Notes under the pieces: generated by a model
What the model saw: the letters and a program-made list of their open reading frames with translations, nothing else
The model's database searches: none
What the model was told of the DNA's origin: nothing
DNA from: Spirochaetae bacterium HGW-Spirochaetae-1
GTDB taxonomy: Bacteria; Spirochaetota; UBA4802; UBA5550
DNA: 64,000 nucleotides
Assembly (NCBI GenBank): GCA_002839375.1
Contig: PGXY01000004.1
Coordinates: forward strand, 115,612-179,611
Direction of reading: 5' to 3'
Position numbers and translations under genes: made by a program
Shown: positions 6,932-33,009 of the stretch, piece by piece
Layout of the letters: each line of letters starts with the position of its first letter
How positions within the stretch are numbered: position 1 is the first letter of the stretch

Positions 6932-7576
6932 TTACTGATGATTTGCCGGCATTATCTTGATTTTACGGTAAATGCCCTGCCCTTCGCTCTTGGTCGTCAC
7001 CCTGCTGTCATTCTGCAGGGCAAGATGAATCAGACGGCGCTCGAAGGGATTCATGGGTTCCAGGGTCCAGGGTTTTCCCGATTTAATTACTTTGTGTGCG
7101 ATGTCGCGGGACATTTTCCGCAGTGCCCGCTCCCTCTTCTCCCGGTATTCTTCAATATCCAGTATGATTTTTTTCTCACTCTGCGTCTGGTGGTTCACCA
7201 TGAGATTGACCATGAACTGTAGCGCTTCCAGGGTTTTCCCCTTTCTGCCTATTATCAGGCCTGAATTCTTTTCGCTCTCCAGTTCTATGTAGACTTTGGA
7301 TTCACCTTCTTTCAGGTCTTTTACACGGGCATCAATGCCCATTTTATTTAATATCGCGAGAAGAATCTCCCTGGTGGTATCCCCCACATCGGCCGAGCTC
7401 TCATTGTAGAAAACCCGCACCTTGGCCTGCTTTGATACACCAAATCCGAAAATTCCGCTTTTCCCCTGTTCAAGTACTTCAATGTTTACCCTTGAGGCAT
7501 CCTGTATTCCCAGTTCTTCAAGAGCTCTTTTTGTCGCGTCATCTACTGTCTTTCCTTCCATTTCGAGGACTTTCAT
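6932..7576 (-). CDS. jag: Jag/KhpB RNA-binding protein
   Basis: A 214-residue protein with an N-terminal Jag domain (EMEGKTVDDATKRALEELG and GIFGFGVSKQAKV), a KH domain with the IIGRKGKTLEALQFMVN loop, and an R3H domain near the C-terminus (PMNPFERRLIHLAL). KhpB is a cytosolic RNA chaperone linked in firmicutes to cell elongation. It sits between yidC and mnmE as in many genomes and has a GGAGG ribosome site. Confidence 0.95.
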   Translation of the reverse strand: MKVLEMEGKTVDDATKRALEELGIQDASRVNIEVLEQGKSGIFGFGVSKQAKVRVFYNESSADVGDTTREILLAILNKMGIDARVKDLKEGESKVYIELESEKNSGLIIGRKGKTLEALQFMVNLMVNHQTQSEKKIILDIEEYREKRERALRKMSRDIAHKVIKSGKPWTLEPMNPFERRLIHLALQNDSRVTTKSEGQGIYRKIKIMPANHQ

Positions 7577-7640
7577 ATATTGCCTCCATTATATATAAGT
7601 GTCTGTTTTTCCTGTTTCAGGTTATTATTCGGGCAAAAGA

Positions 7641-9308
7641 TTATGCCGTTTCCTTTGAAAATCTATTCACGATAAGCTGGTTTGCCACCTGGAAAAAGTT
7701 CTGCAGCGTCCAGTACAGGACCAGCCCTGAAGGCATGGACCAGAAAATAAAAATGAAAACCAGCGGCATGATGGTCATCATCATCTTCTGCTGCTGGCTC
7801 TGCCCCGTATCCACGGTGGTGAGCTTCTGCTGGAGAAAAGTAGAAATCGTCATAAGAACGGGCAGAATATTCACATTGAATCCAGCGATAGTGGCTACAG
7901 TATCGGGCATTGACAAGTCTTTGATCCAGAATATAAAGGGCGCATGCCAGAGATCCATGGAATTGATCAGGGCGCTGTAGAGGGCGAAGAAAAAGGGCAT
8001 CTGAAGGAGAATAGGCAGACATCCCCCCATGGGATTCACCTTGTTCTCGCGATACATATTCATCATTTCCTTCTGCATCACATCGGGTTTATCCTTGTAC
8101 TTCGCCTTGATTTCATTTATTTTCGGCGTCAGGGCCTGCATTTTTTTCATGGAATCAGTGGACTTCTTCGTCAGCGGCATAAAGACGACCTTGGTGAGAA
8201 TGGAGAAAATTACCAGGGACCACCCCATGTTTCCAAAAAGCTTGTTAATATTTTTGAGAGACCAGATAACGAAATACCGTATAGGCTCAATCAGCATGCT
8301 GATATCGGCCGCCTTTTCGATTTTTTTATCGACTGCTGCCAGACGATCCTTATTCTGCTCGCCCAGAAAGACGGTGTAGCTTTTTGTCACGGAACCGCCG
8401 GGACGCATGGTGTCCACTGGAACAAGCATACCCGTTCTGAAGCCCGTTTCGGCGCGATTATCCATCATCATGCTGGAACCGCTGAATTTTTCCGGAATCA
8501 TTATAACCAGGAGATACCGGCTGGCCACGCCTATCCAGTTCACATTCCCCTCTTCCTTTTTGATGATACCGGCCTTGGAAAAGAACCCGCTCCCTTTGGT
8601 TTCGTTCTTATATTTTTCATTAAGAGAACAAATACCCTTCATGGTGTTATAACTGTTTGTAAAATCAAGGGATGGCCCCAGAAGGTCCGTAGGTGAAACG
8701 ATGATGCTGTTATTAGGCAGGGTCAGATCACTCCTGCCTTTATTGATGAGAGTGTATTCAAGACGGAAACTGTCTCCCTTCTCCGTGAAAATAAATGTTT
8801 TCTGAATTTCCAGGGGAACCCCGTTCAGTATGATTCGGGTGGCAAAACGGATGGTGTTGTTTGCCTTCTCCGTCATGTTCCAGTAAGAAGAATCGAGAAC
8901 ATTGCCGTTCATGAATTCATTATCATTGAAATGCAGGGCAAAATCCAGCATGCCCCGGGCGGCGAAGGTGTTTTGCGGAACAACGACCTGAACATCCTTT
9001 TCCTTGAGAAGCATACTTTTAATGACCGCCCCTCTGTTGCTGAAGACGGCTTTATATTGTTCGGTTTCGACAAGGGTCGTAGTTTCGCTGCCCCTGGTTT
9101 CCGGAGCCGTAATTGATACAGGTTTATTCGAAGCAAGCGGTGTGTTAATTGCAGACCCCTGGTCAGAAGTCTTCTGTGTGGTTTTTTCCTGCTGTGTTTT
9201 CTGGACAGCTTTATTATCTACAACCTGGGGTTCCGGTTTAAATATTATAAACCATGCTATCCATATTGCCGCTGACAGGACAACTGCCAGTAAGGTTCTC
9301 TTTTCCAT
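7641..9308 (-). CDS. yidC: Membrane protein insertase YidC
   Basis: A 555-residue inner-membrane insertase/chaperone acting with or without SecYEG. ATG 9308 gives MEKRTLLAVVLSAAIWIAWF, the usual N-terminal membrane anchor. A large periplasmic domain (about residues 60-345) follows, then the conserved C-terminal five-helix core with NMGWSLVIFSILTKVVFMPL, NPMGGCLPILLQMPFF and MPSGLVLYWTLQN. This is the long Gram-negative type. A further upstream in-frame start is not favoured. It lies in the rpmH-to-mnmE cluster. Confidence 0.97.
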   Translation of the reverse strand: MEKRTLLAVVLSAAIWIAWFIIFKPEPQVVDNKAVQKTQQEKTTQKTSDQGSAINTPLASNKPVSITAPETRGSETTTLVETEQYKAVFSNRGAVIKSMLLKEKDVQVVVPQNTFAARGMLDFALHFNDNEFMNGNVLDSSYWNMTEKANNTIRFATRIILNGVPLEIQKTFIFTEKGDSFRLEYTLINKGRSDLTLPNNSIIVSPTDLLGPSLDFTNSYNTMKGICSLNEKYKNETKGSGFFSKAGIIKKEEGNVNWIGVASRYLLVIMIPEKFSGSSMMMDNRAETGFRTGMLVPVDTMRPGGSVTKSYTVFLGEQNKDRLAAVDKKIEKAADISMLIEPIRYFVIWSLKNINKLFGNMGWSLVIFSILTKVVFMPLTKKSTDSMKKMQALTPKINEIKAKYKDKPDVMQKEMMNMYRENKVNPMGGCLPILLQMPFFFALYSALINSMDLWHAPFIFWIKDLSMPDTVATIAGFNVNILPVLMTISTFLQQKLTTVDTGQSQQQKMMMTIMPLVFIFIFWSMPSGLVLYWTLQNFFQVANQLIVNRFSKETA

Positions 9309-10802: not shown

Positions 10803-11123
10803 AGGCGTCCTTTCATTCCGTAAAGAATAGTTACTCTATTATTTACTAAAAAATATGCCTCGTGTCAAATGTAATTAATGAGGAAGACTCATTAAAAATC
10901 CTTCACTGCCTGATTTATCGGCACGGCTGGTCAGAATTGGTAATTTCATCGAATCTATAAAACCGTAACTTACCTTTTATCCGCTTATTAGTTACGACCA
11001 TATACTAGCTGCAATAGCCCCGGACCTCATGAAGGAAATAAACAATTGAAAATCTATTCCGGATCATATATGATAACAGCATACTACCAGATTGACACCA
11101 GGCGATTAATAGGAGGCAGGGAA
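10803..11123. other. Divergent intergenic region with a palindrome
   Basis: 321 bases between the STAS gene and the divergent cyclic-nucleotide-binding glycosidase-like gene. It holds a perfect inverted repeat, TTAATGAG gaaga CTCATTAA (10875-10895), about 75 bases upstream of the STAS start. This could be an operator or a small hairpin. No other structure was recognised. Confidence 0.35.
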
Positions 11124-13358
11124 ATGAACGGATACTCAATAGAAAGTCTGACCGGCGAACTCGTTAAAATCCCCGCCCTGTCACATCTGGCCCCGGAAAT
11201 GCTCTTCGGCAAAATCCCCTTTTTCTCCGATGTGGTTCCGGACATGCTGCAGCGGATTTCCCGTAAAACCCTTATCAGGATATTCTCCGGTGGTGATGTG
11301 GTGTGCCGACACGGGATGTTCAACGAATATTTTCATATCATCCTTTCCGGTACGGCCGCGGCCTTCATCCCCACGGAGGAAAATCCGCGCTATGAGCTCT
11401 ACAGCCTGGGACCCAATGATTTTTTCGGGGAAGAGATACTCTTTTCCCGGGAGCCCAGGGAAAATTCCATCATTGCCCGGGACCGGCTCCTCACACTGGC
11501 CCTGGCCCCCGACGACATTAAAATGCTCATGGAAGGCAATGAAAATATACGCTCCCTTCTGGATCAAAACTATATCAGCCGCAAACTCCGCAAGGACCTG
11601 CGCAGCGTGCCTGTTTTCAGCCATCTCAATGACAATCTTTTTGAAGAGGTGCTTGCTCTTGCCAGCCTTGAATCGTGCCGAAAGGGTGAAACCGTCTTCA
11701 GGGAAAAGGATTTCGGCGACGCCTTTTACCTGATCAGGACAGGCGAGGTAGAGATTTTCCGCAGCAGGAAGAAAAATGATACGCTGATTTCCATCCTCGG
11801 CGAGGGGGAGTTCTTCGGAGAAATGGCTTTGCTTACCAGCGAGCTTCGCAACGGCACGGTCGTCGTGAGCAGCGATGCCGACCTGGTGAAAATATCCCGT
11901 GATGACTTTCTTAACCTCATCAGCCGCGATTCATCGGTCAGCCGGCAGCTCAGTTCTGTCGTGGATGAAAGAAGACGGACCAGCGAAGAGGCCATGAGCA
12001 ATCCCCACATGCCCTTTATAAACCAGCGTCTTATCATCCTGAACCGCATGATCAACCGTCATCTTGATATTCTTTCCCAGTGCGCCATTGAAACCGAAAA
12101 GGGAAGCGCCCTCCTTGCCACGCTGCCCGGATCACGCTATCCCTACGTATATCCCCGGGACAGCGCCTGCGCGTCGCGTTTTCTCTACCAGCTGACACTG
12201 ACGCCCATCAAGGCGGGGAATACCGCCTTCCGGCTTCTTTCGGAAATCGCCCGTTTTATCCTGAATTGTCAGCGTGCCGACGGATACTGGGGGCAGCGCT
12301 ACGGCATAAAGGGGGAGGATAAGGGCATATACCGCCAGGAGGACAATGTGGCCCACGGGGTCACCATTTTATGCCGGTATCTGCTGGCGGCCCATCGCCA
12401 GGGAAAAAGCATTCCCGACCTGGACCGGTACATTGACTCGATCAGCCGGGGCGCGGCCTTTGCCCGAAACAATTATTACCGCAACGAGATCCATCTCTTC
12501 TTTTCCACTACCTCCATCCATGAATCGGCCATCGAGGAAGGATACTCTATATGGGTCAATTTCGCCTATCTCCTCATGCTGCGGCTCATTGAAAAGGTGT
12601 GCCTGGTCTACCATATCGGCGACCGCTTTCCCGAGGATATGTCCCTGAAAGCGGGCTTTGAGGCCACGCTGGACAAGGTGTTCTCCATCGGGGACCGGTA
12701 TGTACGCCGGCTCAGGCCTGAAGGCATCGCGGACCTGCGTCCCGATATCACGCTCCTGAGTCCCTTTTTTTTCAACACCGGCATGGAGGATGACTGGTTC
12801 CGAGACAATGACATATTCCGGCGCTCCGTGGAATTTCTCTCCGACAACCTCTGGGACCCGGACCTGGGCATGCTGCAGCGCTACCTTCCCTTTATCGAGG
12901 ACCCGGACACGCATATCCATGCCGGCAACGGCCCCTGGATACAGTACACGGCCATGCTGGCCCAGTACTATTATCATACCGGGGATCTGGAAAAGGGTGA
13001 CGGCATCATGAACCGCATTGACTCATACCAGTCACGCGAGGGGCACCTCTGCGAGCATCTCACCACGCCGGAACGCTTTTTCGAGTTCAAGCGGCTGGAA
13101 TGGATACCCGGCCACGACTATGAAAAGGAATTCGAGGATAAAATCCTGGTCCCCGGACTTCCCTATGACCATATCGTGGAAGAGCTGAACCATATGAAAA
13201 ACGCCTATGCACATATTGAAGAACAGATCACTGCTGGAGGGCCTAAAAAATTCATCTCCTTTGCAACGCCGCTCATGTGGTCCCATGCCGAATACGCCAT
13301 GGCCCTGCTCATGAAGGCAAAGAAGGAACTGGAACGCTATTCCTATACGCTGGGTTGA
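11124..13358 (+). CDS. Twin cyclic-nucleotide-binding domains fused to a GH15-like (alpha/alpha)6 glycosidase domain
   Basis: A 744-residue predicted cytosolic protein starting at ATG 11124 behind AATAGGAGG. Residues of about 35-145 and 160-275 are two cNMP-binding folds. The phosphate-binding cassettes read FFGEEILFSREPRENS and FFGEMALLTSELRNGT, each keeping the FGE and the Arg. A charged linker leads to a 430-residue helical domain (PYVYPRDSACASRF, ADGYWGQRYGIKGEDKG, YRQEDNVAHGVTILCRYLL, GNGPWIQYTAMLAQYY). This resembles the glucoamylase/glucodextranase barrel of GH15. Whether the glycosidase is active cannot be judged. A role in nucleotide-controlled storage-polysaccharide turnover is inference. 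Confidence 0.72.
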   Translation: MNGYSIESLTGELVKIPALSHLAPEMLFGKIPFFSDVVPDMLQRISRKTLIRIFSGGDVVCRHGMFNEYFHIILSGTAAAFIPTEENPRYELYSLGPNDFFGEEILFSREPRENSIIARDRLLTLALAPDDIKMLMEGNENIRSLLDQNYISRKLRKDLRSVPVFSHLNDNLFEEVLALASLESCRKGETVFREKDFGDAFYLIRTGEVEIFRSRKKNDTLISILGEGEFFGEMALLTSELRNGTVVVSSDADLVKISRDDFLNLISRDSSVSRQLSSVVDERRRTSEEAMSNPHMPFINQRLIILNRMINRHLDILSQCAIETEKGSALLATLPGSRYPYVYPRDSACASRFLYQLTLTPIKAGNTAFRLLSEIARFILNCQRADGYWGQRYGIKGEDKGIYRQEDNVAHGVTILCRYLLAAHRQGKSIPDLDRYIDSISRGAAFARNNYYRNEIHLFFSTTSIHESAIEEGYSIWVNFAYLLMLRLIEKVCLVYHIGDRFPEDMSLKAGFEATLDKVFSIGDRYVRRLRPEGIADLRPDITLLSPFFFNTGMEDDWFRDNDIFRRSVEFLSDNLWDPDLGMLQRYLPFIEDPDTHIHAGNGPWIQYTAMLAQYYYHTGDLEKGDGIMNRIDSYQSREGHLCEHLTTPERFFEFKRLEWIPGHDYEKEFEDKILVPGLPYDHIVEELNHMKNAYAHIEEQITAGGPKKFISFATPLMWSHAEYAMALLMKAKKELERYSYTLG

Positions 13359-13760: not shown

Positions 13761-15917
13761 ATGAAAGAAGTCAATCCGAAGCAGAAAAACGAAGATCCGG
13801 TCATAGCACTGCCCAGGGGCGGCTACCTTGTCGATACCGACATCGGGTATATACAGTTCGGTTCACCGCCGGAAACAATCAAGGATACCATGCGCATGCC
13901 CAGGGGAGTTCCGCAAATCTTTGTTCTCACGCGGGAGATGTTCAACTGGGTCAAGGGTATCAGCGTTGCCGAAATCGAGTTTCCCCTGTATTACAATTAC
14001 TTTATCAAAAACAAAAAGACCTATATCCTCTGTCGTGAAGAACAGCTCAATCCCATCAAGAGAGTACTCCAGGAATCCATATTCGGTCCCCATGAATTTG
14101 ATCTCTGCATAGATTACGATGTGGAAACCTGCGATCAGACAATACCTGACATCAAAAGTGAAATGGAATTCTTCAGAAATAAAAACAGGTTTTCCAATCT
14201 CTTCGAGGTGGGAATTTTCAAGAACAACCGGTTTACCTTTAAGGGAATAACCATTGAGATCGATGAAAACGACAACTATCATGTATCACAGAAGGGTGCT
14301 AAAATTGCAGAAATACCGGGAAAGGTCCAATACAAGCCGACATACCAGATCGGCGAACGTCTGCCAGAACCCTACAAGCCTCCGCTCTTCGGTGTGACCT
14401 GTCTCGGTCCGAGTCACGGGTTCGACCCTGAAGAAAACACATCGGGGTTCATCATCTGGCTGAACCACAAGGGCATCATGGTGGACCCTCCCGTCAACTC
14501 CACGGAGTGGCTCGAGGATTCCAATGTCAATCCCAAACTGATCGAAAGCATCATCCTGACCCATTGCCACGCCGACCATGACGCAGGCACCTTCCAGAAA
14601 ATTCTAGAAGAGGCGAAGGTGACTATTTACACGACAGAAACGGTCATGATGAGCTTTCTCCGCAAATATTCAGCCCTGAGCGACGTGCCCATAAGCTACC
14701 TGCTGAAGCTCTTCAATTTCAACCCGATAAAAATCGGCAAACCTGTATTCATCCATGGCGGCAAATTCACCATGTTTTACACGCTCCACTCCATACCCAC
14801 TATCGGGTTCCGCATGGAGTTTCAGGACAAATCATTCGTTTATTCATCGGATCACAACAACGATCCCGACGTACATGAAAAGCTCCTGGAGGAGAACATC
14901 ATAACCGAGGAACGATACCTGGAGCTGCGTGATTTCCCCTGGGACTCCGATGTCATCTATCACGAATCGGGAATTCCTCCCCTGCATACGCCTATCAGGG
15001 TTTTTGAATCCATGAAACGCGATATCCAGAAAAAAATTGTCATATATCACATCGCCAAAAAGGATTTTCCAAAAAAATCCCGTCTAACCCTGGCCAGGTT
15101 CGGCATGGAACATACGCTCTACTTCAAGGCGCGGCCGCCCCGTTTCGAAAAGGCGTACCAGATACTGGGTATACTCAAAAACCTGGACTTCATGCGGGAG
15201 ATCACCATCGACAAATCCATGGAATTTCTCGAGATCGTGGAAGAGGAACGGTACCGGAAGGGAGCCCGTATACTTGAAAAAGGGGCCCGTGGGGATAAAT
15301 TTTATATCATCCTCTCGGGAAACGTGTCCGTAGACAGCGGCGGTCTTGACCAGCGGAAGATTTACGGCACCTATGATTATTTCGGCGAAGTGGCCGTTCT
15401 CACCGAGCAGACCAGGGCCGCCGATGTATTTGCCGAAACCGACGTGGTGCTCTTTACCATCGAACGGGATAAATTCCTGAATTTCATCGCCGGCACTGAA
15501 TTTGAAAAAACACTTCTTCGCCTGATCAAAATCCGCACCAGTGAGACATGGAACCTCCTGTCCAACAATACTTTTTTCCAGCAGTGTACGGCATCTCAGA
15601 AAACATGGCTCGAGTCAATCTTCGTTCCCGAGGAGCGGGAAGGTTCAGGGGTCATCCAGAAAGAAGGGGAATTGATCAACGCCATCTACATCATCAGGAA
15701 CGGAACCGTCACCGTTTCCCGGCAGGAAAAGGAAATTGCGGTCCTGGGCAGGGGAAATGCCATCGGTTCCATGCAGAAGGTCCACAGGGAAGCGCCGTCC
15801 AAATATACTTTTTACCATAACAGTTCCGTTTCTCTCTATGCCATGAACCATGATGACGTCATACGTTTTGTAGAGCATAATCCCGGCCTTCTCATGAAGC
15901 TGACCTTTGATTACTGA
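13761..15917 (+). CDS. Metallo-beta-lactamase-fold protein with two C-terminal cyclic-nucleotide-binding domains
   Basis: A 718-residue protein. Residues 1-200 form an unassigned N-terminal domain. Residues of about 205-460 are a metallo-beta-lactamase fold with the metal motif THCHADHD (H268, H270, D272, H273), a later HSIPTIGFRM strand and YSSDHNNDPD. Two cNMP-binding domains follow (about 475-595 and 605-715), with FGEVAVLTEQTRAAD in the first; the second is degenerate. The family includes hydrolases of phosphodiesters and thioesters. Together with the preceding gene it suggests cyclic-nucleotide-gated enzymes. The substrate is unknown. Confidence 0.78.
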   Translation: MKEVNPKQKNEDPVIALPRGGYLVDTDIGYIQFGSPPETIKDTMRMPRGVPQIFVLTREMFNWVKGISVAEIEFPLYYNYFIKNKKTYILCREEQLNPIKRVLQESIFGPHEFDLCIDYDVETCDQTIPDIKSEMEFFRNKNRFSNLFEVGIFKNNRFTFKGITIEIDENDNYHVSQKGAKIAEIPGKVQYKPTYQIGERLPEPYKPPLFGVTCLGPSHGFDPEENTSGFIIWLNHKGIMVDPPVNSTEWLEDSNVNPKLIESIILTHCHADHDAGTFQKILEEAKVTIYTTETVMMSFLRKYSALSDVPISYLLKLFNFNPIKIGKPVFIHGGKFTMFYTLHSIPTIGFRMEFQDKSFVYSSDHNNDPDVHEKLLEENIITEERYLELRDFPWDSDVIYHESGIPPLHTPIRVFESMKRDIQKKIVIYHIAKKDFPKKSRLTLARFGMEHTLYFKARPPRFEKAYQILGILKNLDFMREITIDKSMEFLEIVEEERYRKGARILEKGARGDKFYIILSGNVSVDSGGLDQRKIYGTYDYFGEVAVLTEQTRAADVFAETDVVLFTIERDKFLNFIAGTEFEKTLLRLIKIRTSETWNLLSNNTFFQQCTASQKTWLESIFVPEEREGSGVIQKEGELINAIYIIRNGTVTVSRQEKEIAVLGRGNAIGSMQKVHREAPSKYTFYHNSSVSLYAMNHDDVIRFVEHNPGLLMKLTFDY

Positions 15918-31034: not shown

Positions 31035-31143
31035 TGATTTCTCCATTATCTGTTTCCATCCGGCATTGGTGATTGTTTTTTCTGTAATGATTTTTATGGA
31101 TACACAGAAATTTCCTATCTATCAAAAAGGAGAGCTTTCCAAT

Positions 31144-33009
31144 ATGTTAATTCGTTTTAGAATAATCACGGTATTTTTATTGATGATAGTCCTGCATGTA
31201 TTTCCATGTCAGATCTTATATGCCGCGACACCAATAACATTACAGCATGATCAGGAATCATACGAGTTATGGGACCACATTGACATTAATGTTGACCCCG
31301 ACGGAAATCTGGGCCCTGAAACATTATCGCGCGTCCACTGGGAAAAAAACATCAGAAAGGTTATTCAGTATGGCCTCACAGGCTACACGTACTGGATGCG
31401 ATTTACCGTCAACAACACTGCCGGAATCGATTCCGAGTATTATCTTGACACAAACGATACACAGACCGAGATAGTCGAGCTATATCTTGCAACGGGGACA
31501 TCATGGAAACTTCTGAAACAAGCAGGCCGCTTCCACCCTGATTCCTTTAAGCTCTGGAACAGACCTGACATTCCTTTCGTTCCTCCCCGGGGCACCACCA
31601 CGTATTACTTGAAAGCCGCCAGTCAGTCGTATATCAATTTTGAACCGGTACTGAGAACTCCGACAAATTATCTTAAAAAAATTTCGCGCTACCTCTTTTT
31701 GTATGGGGCCTATTTTTCAATTATTGTCGTCATGATTTTATACAATACGCTGCTATTCATCGGCATGAAGAGCAAGACCTATGCCTTCTATGTTCTTTAT
31801 CTTATTTCCATTTTAGGGCACCAGTTTTTCGGCGAAGGGTTTGGCGTTATGTTCTTCGGAGCCGGATATCTCCCTCTCTACTCGGGGATAACCTTCATCG
31901 CAGCATGTCTCTTCACTGACTCGTATTTCGAAAACCGACGAAATCATCCATTGATACATCGGGCCGGCATCTGGCTGATGGTTGCCCTGGGGGTCTGGAG
32001 CGCAGGTTCGCTGTTTATCCATCCACAGCGATATGCCTATTTCATCACAAGCAGCATCGTTTCAACGGTGGTTTACACATATGTAATACTGAACTGTGCC
32101 GCAGCCATAAAGGCGGGGAATAAAACCGCGAGTTTTTTCATACTGGGCTGGTCGGGACTCATCATTTTTTCCGCGATGTATCTCGGGGTCATATTTCAGA
32201 TCATACCCGCGAATGGGTTTACTCTGAACGGTATCGGCATCGGATCGGTCTATGAAGCTGTGATGCTCTCTCTCGCACTCGCCCAGCAGGTCAACATCAG
32301 CAGACAGGAAAGGGAGGAAGCAATACAGCGAAACCTCGACACCCAGACCAGGATGGCCGAGTCCTTTGCACGCTTCGTTCCCAAGGAATTTATTCAATTC
32401 CTGGGCCGGCAGAGCATCATAGACATACAGCTCGGCGATCAGATTCAGAGAACCATAACTATTCTCTTTTCAGACATCCGCTCTTTCACGACCTTCTCTG
32501 AAAAAAATACCCCCCAGGAGACGATAGATTTTTTAAATTCGTACTTTGTAAGCATCGGGCCCATAATTCGCAAAAACAGGGGATTCGTCGATAAATACAT
32601 CGGCGATGCCATTATGGCCCTGTTCCCGGGAAACCCCGATGATGCCATAGACGCGGCTGAGGAGATGATGCATCAGCTCGATAAATTCAATGCAGACAGG
32701 ACCATATCGAATCGTGAGACCATCAGAATCGGTATCGGAATTCATACCGGTGAATGCATGCTCGGCACCATTGGTGAAAAGGACAGACTTGAAACAACGG
32801 TCATCGCTGATGCAGTTAATACTGCCTCGCGACTTGAAGGCCTCAACAAACGGTTCAATACCACTATCCTGATATCACAGAAAACACTGGCGTCATTGAA
32901 AAACCCGGGGAAATATCATGTCAGGGACCTCGGACTTCAACAGGTACGGGGCAAGACCGATAAGCTGCATATCCATGAAATCATACAACAGCACGCACAG
33001 CATGTTTGA
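31144..33009 (+). CDS. 7TMR-DISM receptor-linked class III adenylyl/guanylyl cyclase
   Basis: A 621-residue protein. It has a signal peptide, a DISMED2-type extracellular beta domain (residues 30-160; WMRFTVNNTAGIDSEYYLDT), seven helices (about 180-380), a short coiled coil and a C-terminal class III nucleotide cyclase domain. Metal-binding D444 (ILFSDIRSFT) and D488 (KYIGDAIMALF) are present, as is TVIADAVNTASRLE with the transition-state Asn/Arg. Base specificity is likely ATP but unproven. It could supply cAMP to the cNMP-binding proteins at 11-16 kb. ATG 31144 has an AGGAG site. Confidence 0.88.
   Translation: MLIRFRIITVFLLMIVLHVFPCQILYAATPITLQHDQESYELWDHIDINVDPDGNLGPETLSRVHWEKNIRKVIQYGLTGYTYWMRFTVNNTAGIDSEYYLDTNDTQTEIVELYLATGTSWKLLKQAGRFHPDSFKLWNRPDIPFVPPRGTTTYYLKAASQSYINFEPVLRTPTNYLKKISRYLFLYGAYFSIIVVMILYNTLLFIGMKSKTYAFYVLYLISILGHQFFGEGFGVMFFGAGYLPLYSGITFIAACLFTDSYFENRRNHPLIHRAGIWLMVALGVWSAGSLFIHPQRYAYFITSSIVSTVVYTYVILNCAAAIKAGNKTASFFILGWSGLIIFSAMYLGVIFQIIPANGFTLNGIGIGSVYEAVMLSLALAQQVNISRQEREEAIQRNLDTQTRMAESFARFVPKEFIQFLGRQSIIDIQLGDQIQRTITILFSDIRSFTTFSEKNTPQETIDFLNSYFVSIGPIIRKNRGFVDKYIGDAIMALFPGNPDDAIDAAEEMMHQLDKFNADRTISNRETIRIGIGIHTGECMLGTIGEKDRLETTVIADAVNTASRLEGLNKRFNTTILISQKTLASLKNPGKYHVRDLGLQQVRGKTDKLHIHEIIQQHAQHV

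Follow-up and report, generated by a model that had tools for sequence, protein, structure and literature searches.

Organization of the locus

The window, which is the whole stretch of 64,000 nucleotides analysed here (Spirochaetae bacterium HGW-Spirochaetae-1, contig PGXY01000004.1), carries on its plus strand a gene of 744 codons plus a stop codon. Its ATG start lies closely 3' of an AGGAGG ribosome-binding site, and the alignment of relatives to the encoded protein begins at this ATG. The protein consists of two consecutive cNMP-binding (CNB) domains, a short helical connector and a GH15-like barrel. The features of the locus are as follows.

11111 to 11116, plus strand: ribosome-binding site AGGAGG upstream of the ATG at 11124, read directly from the sequence
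11124 to 13358, plus strand: CNB-CNB-GH15-like fusion protein, 744 amino acids plus stop; open reading frame, with the same architecture at full length in 14 genomes including its own
11277 to 11534, plus strand: CNB domain A (PF00027; cassette alignment), with the phosphate-binding cassette FFGEEILFSREPRENSI, invariant Glu103 (codon 11430) and Arg112 (codon 11457), departing from the RxA[TS] consensus
11670 to 11930, plus strand: CNB domain B (PF00027; cassette alignment), with the near-canonical cassette FFGEMALLTSELRNGTVV, invariant Glu233 (codon 11820) and Arg242 (codon 11847)
11931 to 12080, plus strand: helical connector, in which the CNB-B helix (residues 270-291) precedes alpha1 of the barrel (residues 296-319), as read from the secondary structure that AlphaFold predicts for the whole chain
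12009 to 13352, plus strand: GH15-like (alpha/alpha)6 barrel, residues 296-743 (AlphaFold, Foldseek, HHalign; TIGR01577 and TIGR01535 matches of relatives)
12156 to 12161, plus strand: Arg345-Asp346 within YPRD, invariant and corresponding to the W/YxRD motif in region S1 of GH15 (YxWxRD of GH15 in HHalign)
12522 to 12524, plus strand: Glu467 (SIHE) of the alpha5-alpha6 loop, a candidate for the general acid that does not vary among 15 diverse members
Codon 12534, plus strand: Glu471, invariant alternative to Glu467 as candidate general acid
13053 to 13055, plus strand: Glu644 (GHLCEHLTT) of the alpha11-alpha12 loop, a candidate for the general base, invariant and aligned with the S5 Glu of GH15 (GLLPEQI)
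13056 to 13268, plus strand: insertion specific to the subfamily, which separates the putative general base from the PLMWSHAE helix (58-column gap in HHalign; conserved family-wide)

An earlier note, made from the sequence alone, had described this gene as a glycosidase-like domain fused to a pair of cNMP sensors. The open reading frame, the PF00027 matches, the barrel model and the recurrence of the architecture confirm this observation. Since 14 full-length proteins, that of the window among them, carry the fusion and form one clade, a chance or misassembled fusion is ruled out. The N-terminus, inspected by eye, lacks a hydrophobic stretch, which speaks against a secreted enzyme; no secretion signal is obvious, in keeping with the cytosolic location that had been proposed.

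Tandem CNB module

In the Pfam scan, PF00027 matches two stretches of the protein (E = 8.5e-37), and the phosphate-binding Glu and Arg are intact in both. The N-terminal half retrieves PKG and PKA regulatory chains in PDB sequence searches, and the tandem CNB modules of PKG and PKA in Foldseek. Cassette alignment of the 14 homologues reveals that Glu103 and Arg112 of CNB-A are invariant, as are Glu233 and Arg242 of CNB-B. The CNB-B cassette is near-canonical in all aligned homologues, FGEM[AS]Lx(5)RN[AG]TV. CNB-A keeps the Glu and Arg but deviates downstream (PRENS or PREST), where the RxA[TS] part is missing. Judged by these residues, the ligand of the pair is probably cAMP or cGMP.

In the full-length AlphaFold model (14 sequences), the CNB-B helix at residues 270-291 runs almost directly into barrel helix alpha1 at residues 296-319. 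As the barrel is poorly modelled in this prediction, it was used for the secondary structure of the connector and not for the arrangement of domains. The adjacency of the two predicted helices may provide a short path for allosteric coupling between sensor and barrel.

A barrel related to GH15

The Pfam scan shows the CNB domains only and finds no match for the C-terminal ~450 residues; the barrel belongs to a family without a Pfam model. The GH15 profile PF00723 has zero matches across the whole genome that holds the window, and sequence searches with the domain, or with profiles of its relatives, do not retrieve GH15 sequences from the PDB. Because Pfam and PDB sequence searches yield no GH15 match, the comparison had to be made by fold search and by profile-profile alignment.

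The AlphaFold model of the barrel domain, built with 25 homologues, reaches a pLDDT of 83 and a pTM of 0.90. Confidence falls below 50 at domain residues 168-173 and 293-306, which are parts of the active-site loops, and the loop of the general acid is one of the regions modelled with least confidence. The best Foldseek match in the PDB is the GH15 structure 5Z3A (E = 1.2e-10, probability 1.00), the isomaltose glucohydrolase KfIG of Kribbella flavida (PMC12446779). After 5Z3A and its mutants follow dextran dextrinase and glucoamylases. Ranks 1 to 13 are occupied by GH15 enzymes or other alpha-glucosidases, seven of these thirteen being one and the same isomaltose glucohydrolase, and the TM-scores against 5Z3A and its mutants are moderate (0.57-0.71).

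Profile-profile comparison leads to the same family. HHalign aligns the barrel family with 12 GH15 proteins of different phyla over 384 columns (99.3%, E = 4e-20); with ten closely similar planctomycete GH15s the match is weaker (95.6%, E = 1.2e-8) and the catalytic loops are partly misplaced. Among 15 diverse members of the barrel family, the GH15-type NCBIfam model TIGR01577 matches 11 at E <= 1 (best 7.1e-10), and a second model of this type, TIGR01535, matches four (best 1.7e-5). The window protein itself lies far below the TIGR01577 cut-off (E = 0.038).

Taken together, the model, its top match 5Z3A, the HHalign result and the relatives' TIGR01577 matches bear out the GH15-like helical barrel of the earlier note, and the structure prediction that the note had proposed as a check does yield an (alpha/alpha)6 barrel. 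The comparison of predicted folds and of sequence profiles supports a distant homology to GH15. Because the PF00723 test failed, we describe the domain as GH15-related and not as a member of GH15. Both halves of the protein, the CNB sensors and the GH15-like barrel, are thus well supported by computation.

Candidate catalytic residues

GH15 enzymes carry their general acid in the alpha5-alpha6 loop and their general base in the alpha11-alpha12 loop (PMC12446779). By helix count of the AlphaFold model, candidate Glu residues of the barrel fall in both of these loops. The use of a more diverse GH15 set in HHalign settled the general base and not the general acid. The conserved base segment of GH15, GLLPEQI, aligns with GHLCEHL, which makes E644 the candidate general base; E644 is invariant in the 15 diverse members. 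The same alignment pairs the YxxRD motif of region S1 with YPRD and PLTWSHA of GH15 with PLMWSHA. Between the E644 segment and PLMWSHA lies a conserved insertion of ~60-70 residues, most of which remains unaligned with classical GH15.

The test of region S3 places both E467 and E471 in the alpha5-alpha6 loop, but this loop is longer than that of GH15 and the register of the general acid is accordingly ambiguous. From the likeness of I-H-E to L-W-E, we favour E467 over E471 as the candidate. E467, E471, YPRD and GNGP are invariant in the 15 diverse members, from spirochaetes to haloarchaea. For the Glu pair sought by the earlier note, the barrel offers two invariant candidates, E644 together with E467 or E471; neither of the outcomes that would have contradicted the note, a missing barrel or a barrel devoid of both acids, was observed. 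The invariance of acidic residues across phyla argues against a pseudo-enzyme.

Compared with GH15 (5Z3A, the bacterial glucoamylase 1LF6 and the oligosaccharide amylase model TIGR01577), the protein has in common the (alpha/alpha)6 barrel fold, a candidate Glu in each catalytic loop, the YxRD motif, the base-loop sequence G-x-x-x-E-[QH] with PLxWSHA after it, and a GNxPW-like segment. In contrast to GH15, it misses the PF00723 and NCBIfam cut-offs, has a longer general-acid loop and the ~60-70-residue insertion after the base, and is fused to CNB domains.

Distribution and origin of the fusion

Relatives were searched for in 59 related genomes and in the GTDB genome collection. Full-length CNB-CNB-barrel proteins occur in 14 genomes including the one studied here, all of one spirochaete order; the 13 others are 51-60% identical to the window protein. 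Within this order, every full-length relative (14/14) carries the fusion. Sampling the phylum more widely gave matches in 20 of 393 genomes, each of them inside the same order. More than half of the genomes sampled from the order lack the fused gene, and in some members it has decayed. Two genomes (G023 and G024) hold apparent remnants on the reverse strand, a 199-aa open reading frame at locus L069 and a 110-aa one at L070, in which the N-terminus is joined almost directly to the C-terminus of the fused gene, as after large internal deletions. These remnants apparently reflect decay or an assembly artefact. Among the viral contigs searched, no relatives were found.

The barrel also occurs without CNB domains. 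In anammox Scalindua/Brocadiaceae, the main group is 47-50% identical to the barrel of the window protein, and a second, paralogous standalone group in the same planctomycetes is 44-45% identical. Three haloarchaeal plasmids carry a standalone barrel of 36-38% identity, annotated as glucoamylase in two of the three. In the maximum-likelihood tree, the 14 fused proteins form one clade (100/100) adjoining the main anammox group. The simplest reading of this sequence-based tree is that the fusion arose in a single event; the sister relation to the anammox group is less certain because the deep branches are long.

Gene neighbourhoods and host genome

On two of the haloarchaeal plasmids, the barrel gene shares an operon with genes for a carbohydrate ABC importer, a dehydrogenase and a protein of the sugar phosphate isomerase/epimerase family, and a TrmB regulator adjoins this operon. 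On one of the two, the operon also contains an AGE epimerase gene, and a glycogen-debranching-type gene is located near the haloarchaeal barrel operon. Among the neighbourhoods of the fused loci, no consistent functional partner was found.

In the window, the next gene downstream (13761 to 15917, plus strand) encodes a protein with two CNB domains (PF00027) C-terminal to a metallo-beta-lactamase-fold domain (PF12706/PF00753), so that two different CNB-coupled enzymes (11124 to 13358 and 13761 to 15917) are adjacent. No orthologue of this downstream gene was seen next to the fused gene at the other loci, most of which have 1.5-5 kb of flank. In two families of the order, a protein of ~553 amino acids is encoded directly upstream of the fused gene (L025 700 to 2361, L027 2366 to 4024, L041 1407 to 3065) and a CCA-adding enzyme directly downstream. 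The upstream proteins of L025 and L027 contain a LamG lectin-like domain; that of L041 is assigned by position and length only. A Scalindua barrel locus, L029, has as a neighbour an ammonium transporter-histidine kinase fusion (7026 to 9020, reverse strand) beside a response regulator.

In the host genome, eight class III cyclases score above the cut-off and there are 32 CNB domain matches. One of the cyclases carries a 7TMR-DISM sensor region and lies in the window at 31066 to 33009 (plus strand), ~18 kb from the fusion gene, where it is a plausible source of the messenger. The glycogen and alpha-glucan enzymes of the genome comprise a GlgX above the cut-off, a strong match to glycogen/starch phosphorylase (PF00343), a sucrose-phosphorylase-like enzyme below the cut-off and a GlgA-related synthase domain in a protein of 1629 residues (G000:C3 310830 to 313382; locus L101 897 to 5783). 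The latter unites GH13-type and glycogen-synthase-type regions in one chain, which is an unusual combination. As the genome encodes both cyclases and glycogen or alpha-glucan enzymes, the cytosol is likely to contain the messenger as well as possible substrates.

Proposed function and alternative readings

We postulate that the protein is probably a cytosolic alpha-glucosidase or glucan hydrolase of GH15 type, gated in cis by cAMP or cGMP. Class III cyclases would produce the cyclic nucleotide, which would bind the N-terminal tandem CNB module. The resulting rearrangement of CNB helices would be passed through the short connector to barrel helix alpha1, thereby opening or reshaping the active site, and the barrel would then use the pair of Glu residues typical of GH15 to split off glucose from an alpha-glucan or alpha-glucoside. 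By analogy with Bd1971 and EPAC, activation is more likely than inhibition. Hydrolysis and the class of substrate are predicted from the relation to GH15; the polysaccharide of the earlier note and a smaller substrate, either an oligosaccharide or a disaccharide (for example isomaltose, maltose or trehalose), are equally likely. The computational evidence covers domain order, barrel fold, distant GH15 homology, conservation of the candidate catalytic residues, intactness of the phosphate-binding residues, co-occurrence with cyclases and glycogen enzymes, and the fusion having arisen once.

An active GH15-type enzyme could also carry CNB domains that bind heme, a nucleoside or another metabolite, or that serve in oligomerisation only. 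CNB domains with a non-canonical cassette are known to bind other ligands (PMC2246266), nucleosides are reported as ligands of trypanosomatid PKA (PMC10959531), and CNB-A lacks the RxA[TS] part of the cassette. However, the near-canonical cassette of CNB-B, with its Glu and Arg invariant in 14 of 14 homologues, and the eight class III cyclases of the same genome make this reading unlikely. We consider it quite unlikely that the protein is a carbohydrate-responsive signalling or scaffold protein, with a non-catalytic or transglycosylating barrel that binds glucan or oligosaccharide and CNB domains that modulate this binding. Dextran dextrinase is a GH15 transglucosylase that retains both Glu residues, so a GH15 sequence alone does not distinguish hydrolysis from transglycosylation (PMC12446779), and the subfamily insertion beside the putative base would fit an altered barrel of this kind. 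Yet the acidic and the subsite-like residues are invariant across phyla in fused and standalone proteins alike, whereas the loss of some of these residues would be anticipated in a domain without catalytic function.

It is highly improbable that the protein is a six-hairpin enzyme with a chemistry other than that on alpha-glucosides, for instance a relative of invertases, mannosidases or epimerases, under cyclic-nucleotide control: invertases, GH125 mannosidase and glucose-2-epimerase do appear in Foldseek, but with weaker E-values and after the GH15 enzymes and other alpha-glucosidases that fill the first thirteen ranks, and both the NCBIfam sequence models and the profile comparison likewise favour GH15.

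Relation to known systems

In animals and fungi, cAMP governs the breakdown of storage sugars via kinase cascades, and in bacteria such as E. coli it works mainly via a transcription factor. If the GH15-type hydrolase gated by cAMP or cGMP is the correct reading, sensor and sugar-cutting domain in one chain would amount to a one-step version of this control, and a small signalling molecule would let the cell start or stop the degradation of sugar polymers directly.

CNB domains fused to oxidoreductase, HisK, CBS and ATPase families have been described (PMC2246266); words beginning with glyco- or hydrolase are absent from the main text of that paper. In the open-access papers searched, we found no relevant report of CNB with GH15, glucoamylase or glycosyl hydrolase. 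The closest bacterial counterpart in layout is Bd1971 of Bdellovibrio, a cAMP-sensing and cAMP-activated c-di-GMP phosphodiesterase that likewise joins an N-terminal CNB sensor to a C-terminal catalytic domain in one chain (PMC6717892). It differs in having one CNB domain and an EAL phosphodiesterase in place of tandem CNB domains and a glycosidase barrel. Two consecutive CNB domains are also found in the PKA and PKG modules and in EPAC2, and EPAC2 couples CNB to catalysis in cis, but these proteins are eukaryotic and their output is a kinase or an exchange factor. In Streptomyces, c-di-GMP is a ligand and regulator of the glycogen-debranching enzyme GlgX (PMC9530166). There, a second messenger acts directly on a glycogen-degrading glycosidase, much as is proposed for the fusion protein; GlgX is, in contrast, a GH13 enzyme that binds c-di-GMP, and it does not unite CNB and GH15-like domains in one chain.

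The statement of the earlier note that it knew of no characterised design of this kind stands in part. The combination of domains is unreported in the open-access papers searched, but direct second-messenger control has precedents in GlgX with c-di-GMP (PMC9530166) and in Bd1971 with cAMP (PMC6717892). We propose that what may be new, judging by sequence and predicted fold, is a CNB-gated enzyme with a new output, a divergent GH15-related barrel, while CNB-enzyme fusions and second-messenger control of a glycosidase are known. The broader statement, in which cAMP or cGMP would directly and reversibly switch a cytosolic glucan or glucoside hydrolase in cis, bypassing transcription and phosphorylation, and in which the barrel would form a Pfam-unrecognised GH15-related subfamily of spirochaetes, anammox planctomycetes and haloarchaea, has in our judgement an even chance of being correct.

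The standalone homologues of Scalindua/Brocadiaceae and haloarchaea share the barrel and the invariant acidic residues with the fusion protein, but have no CNB domains, neither in the protein nor in the neighbouring genes scanned. At about 50% identity, such standalone barrels constitute a natural control for the effect of the added sensor.
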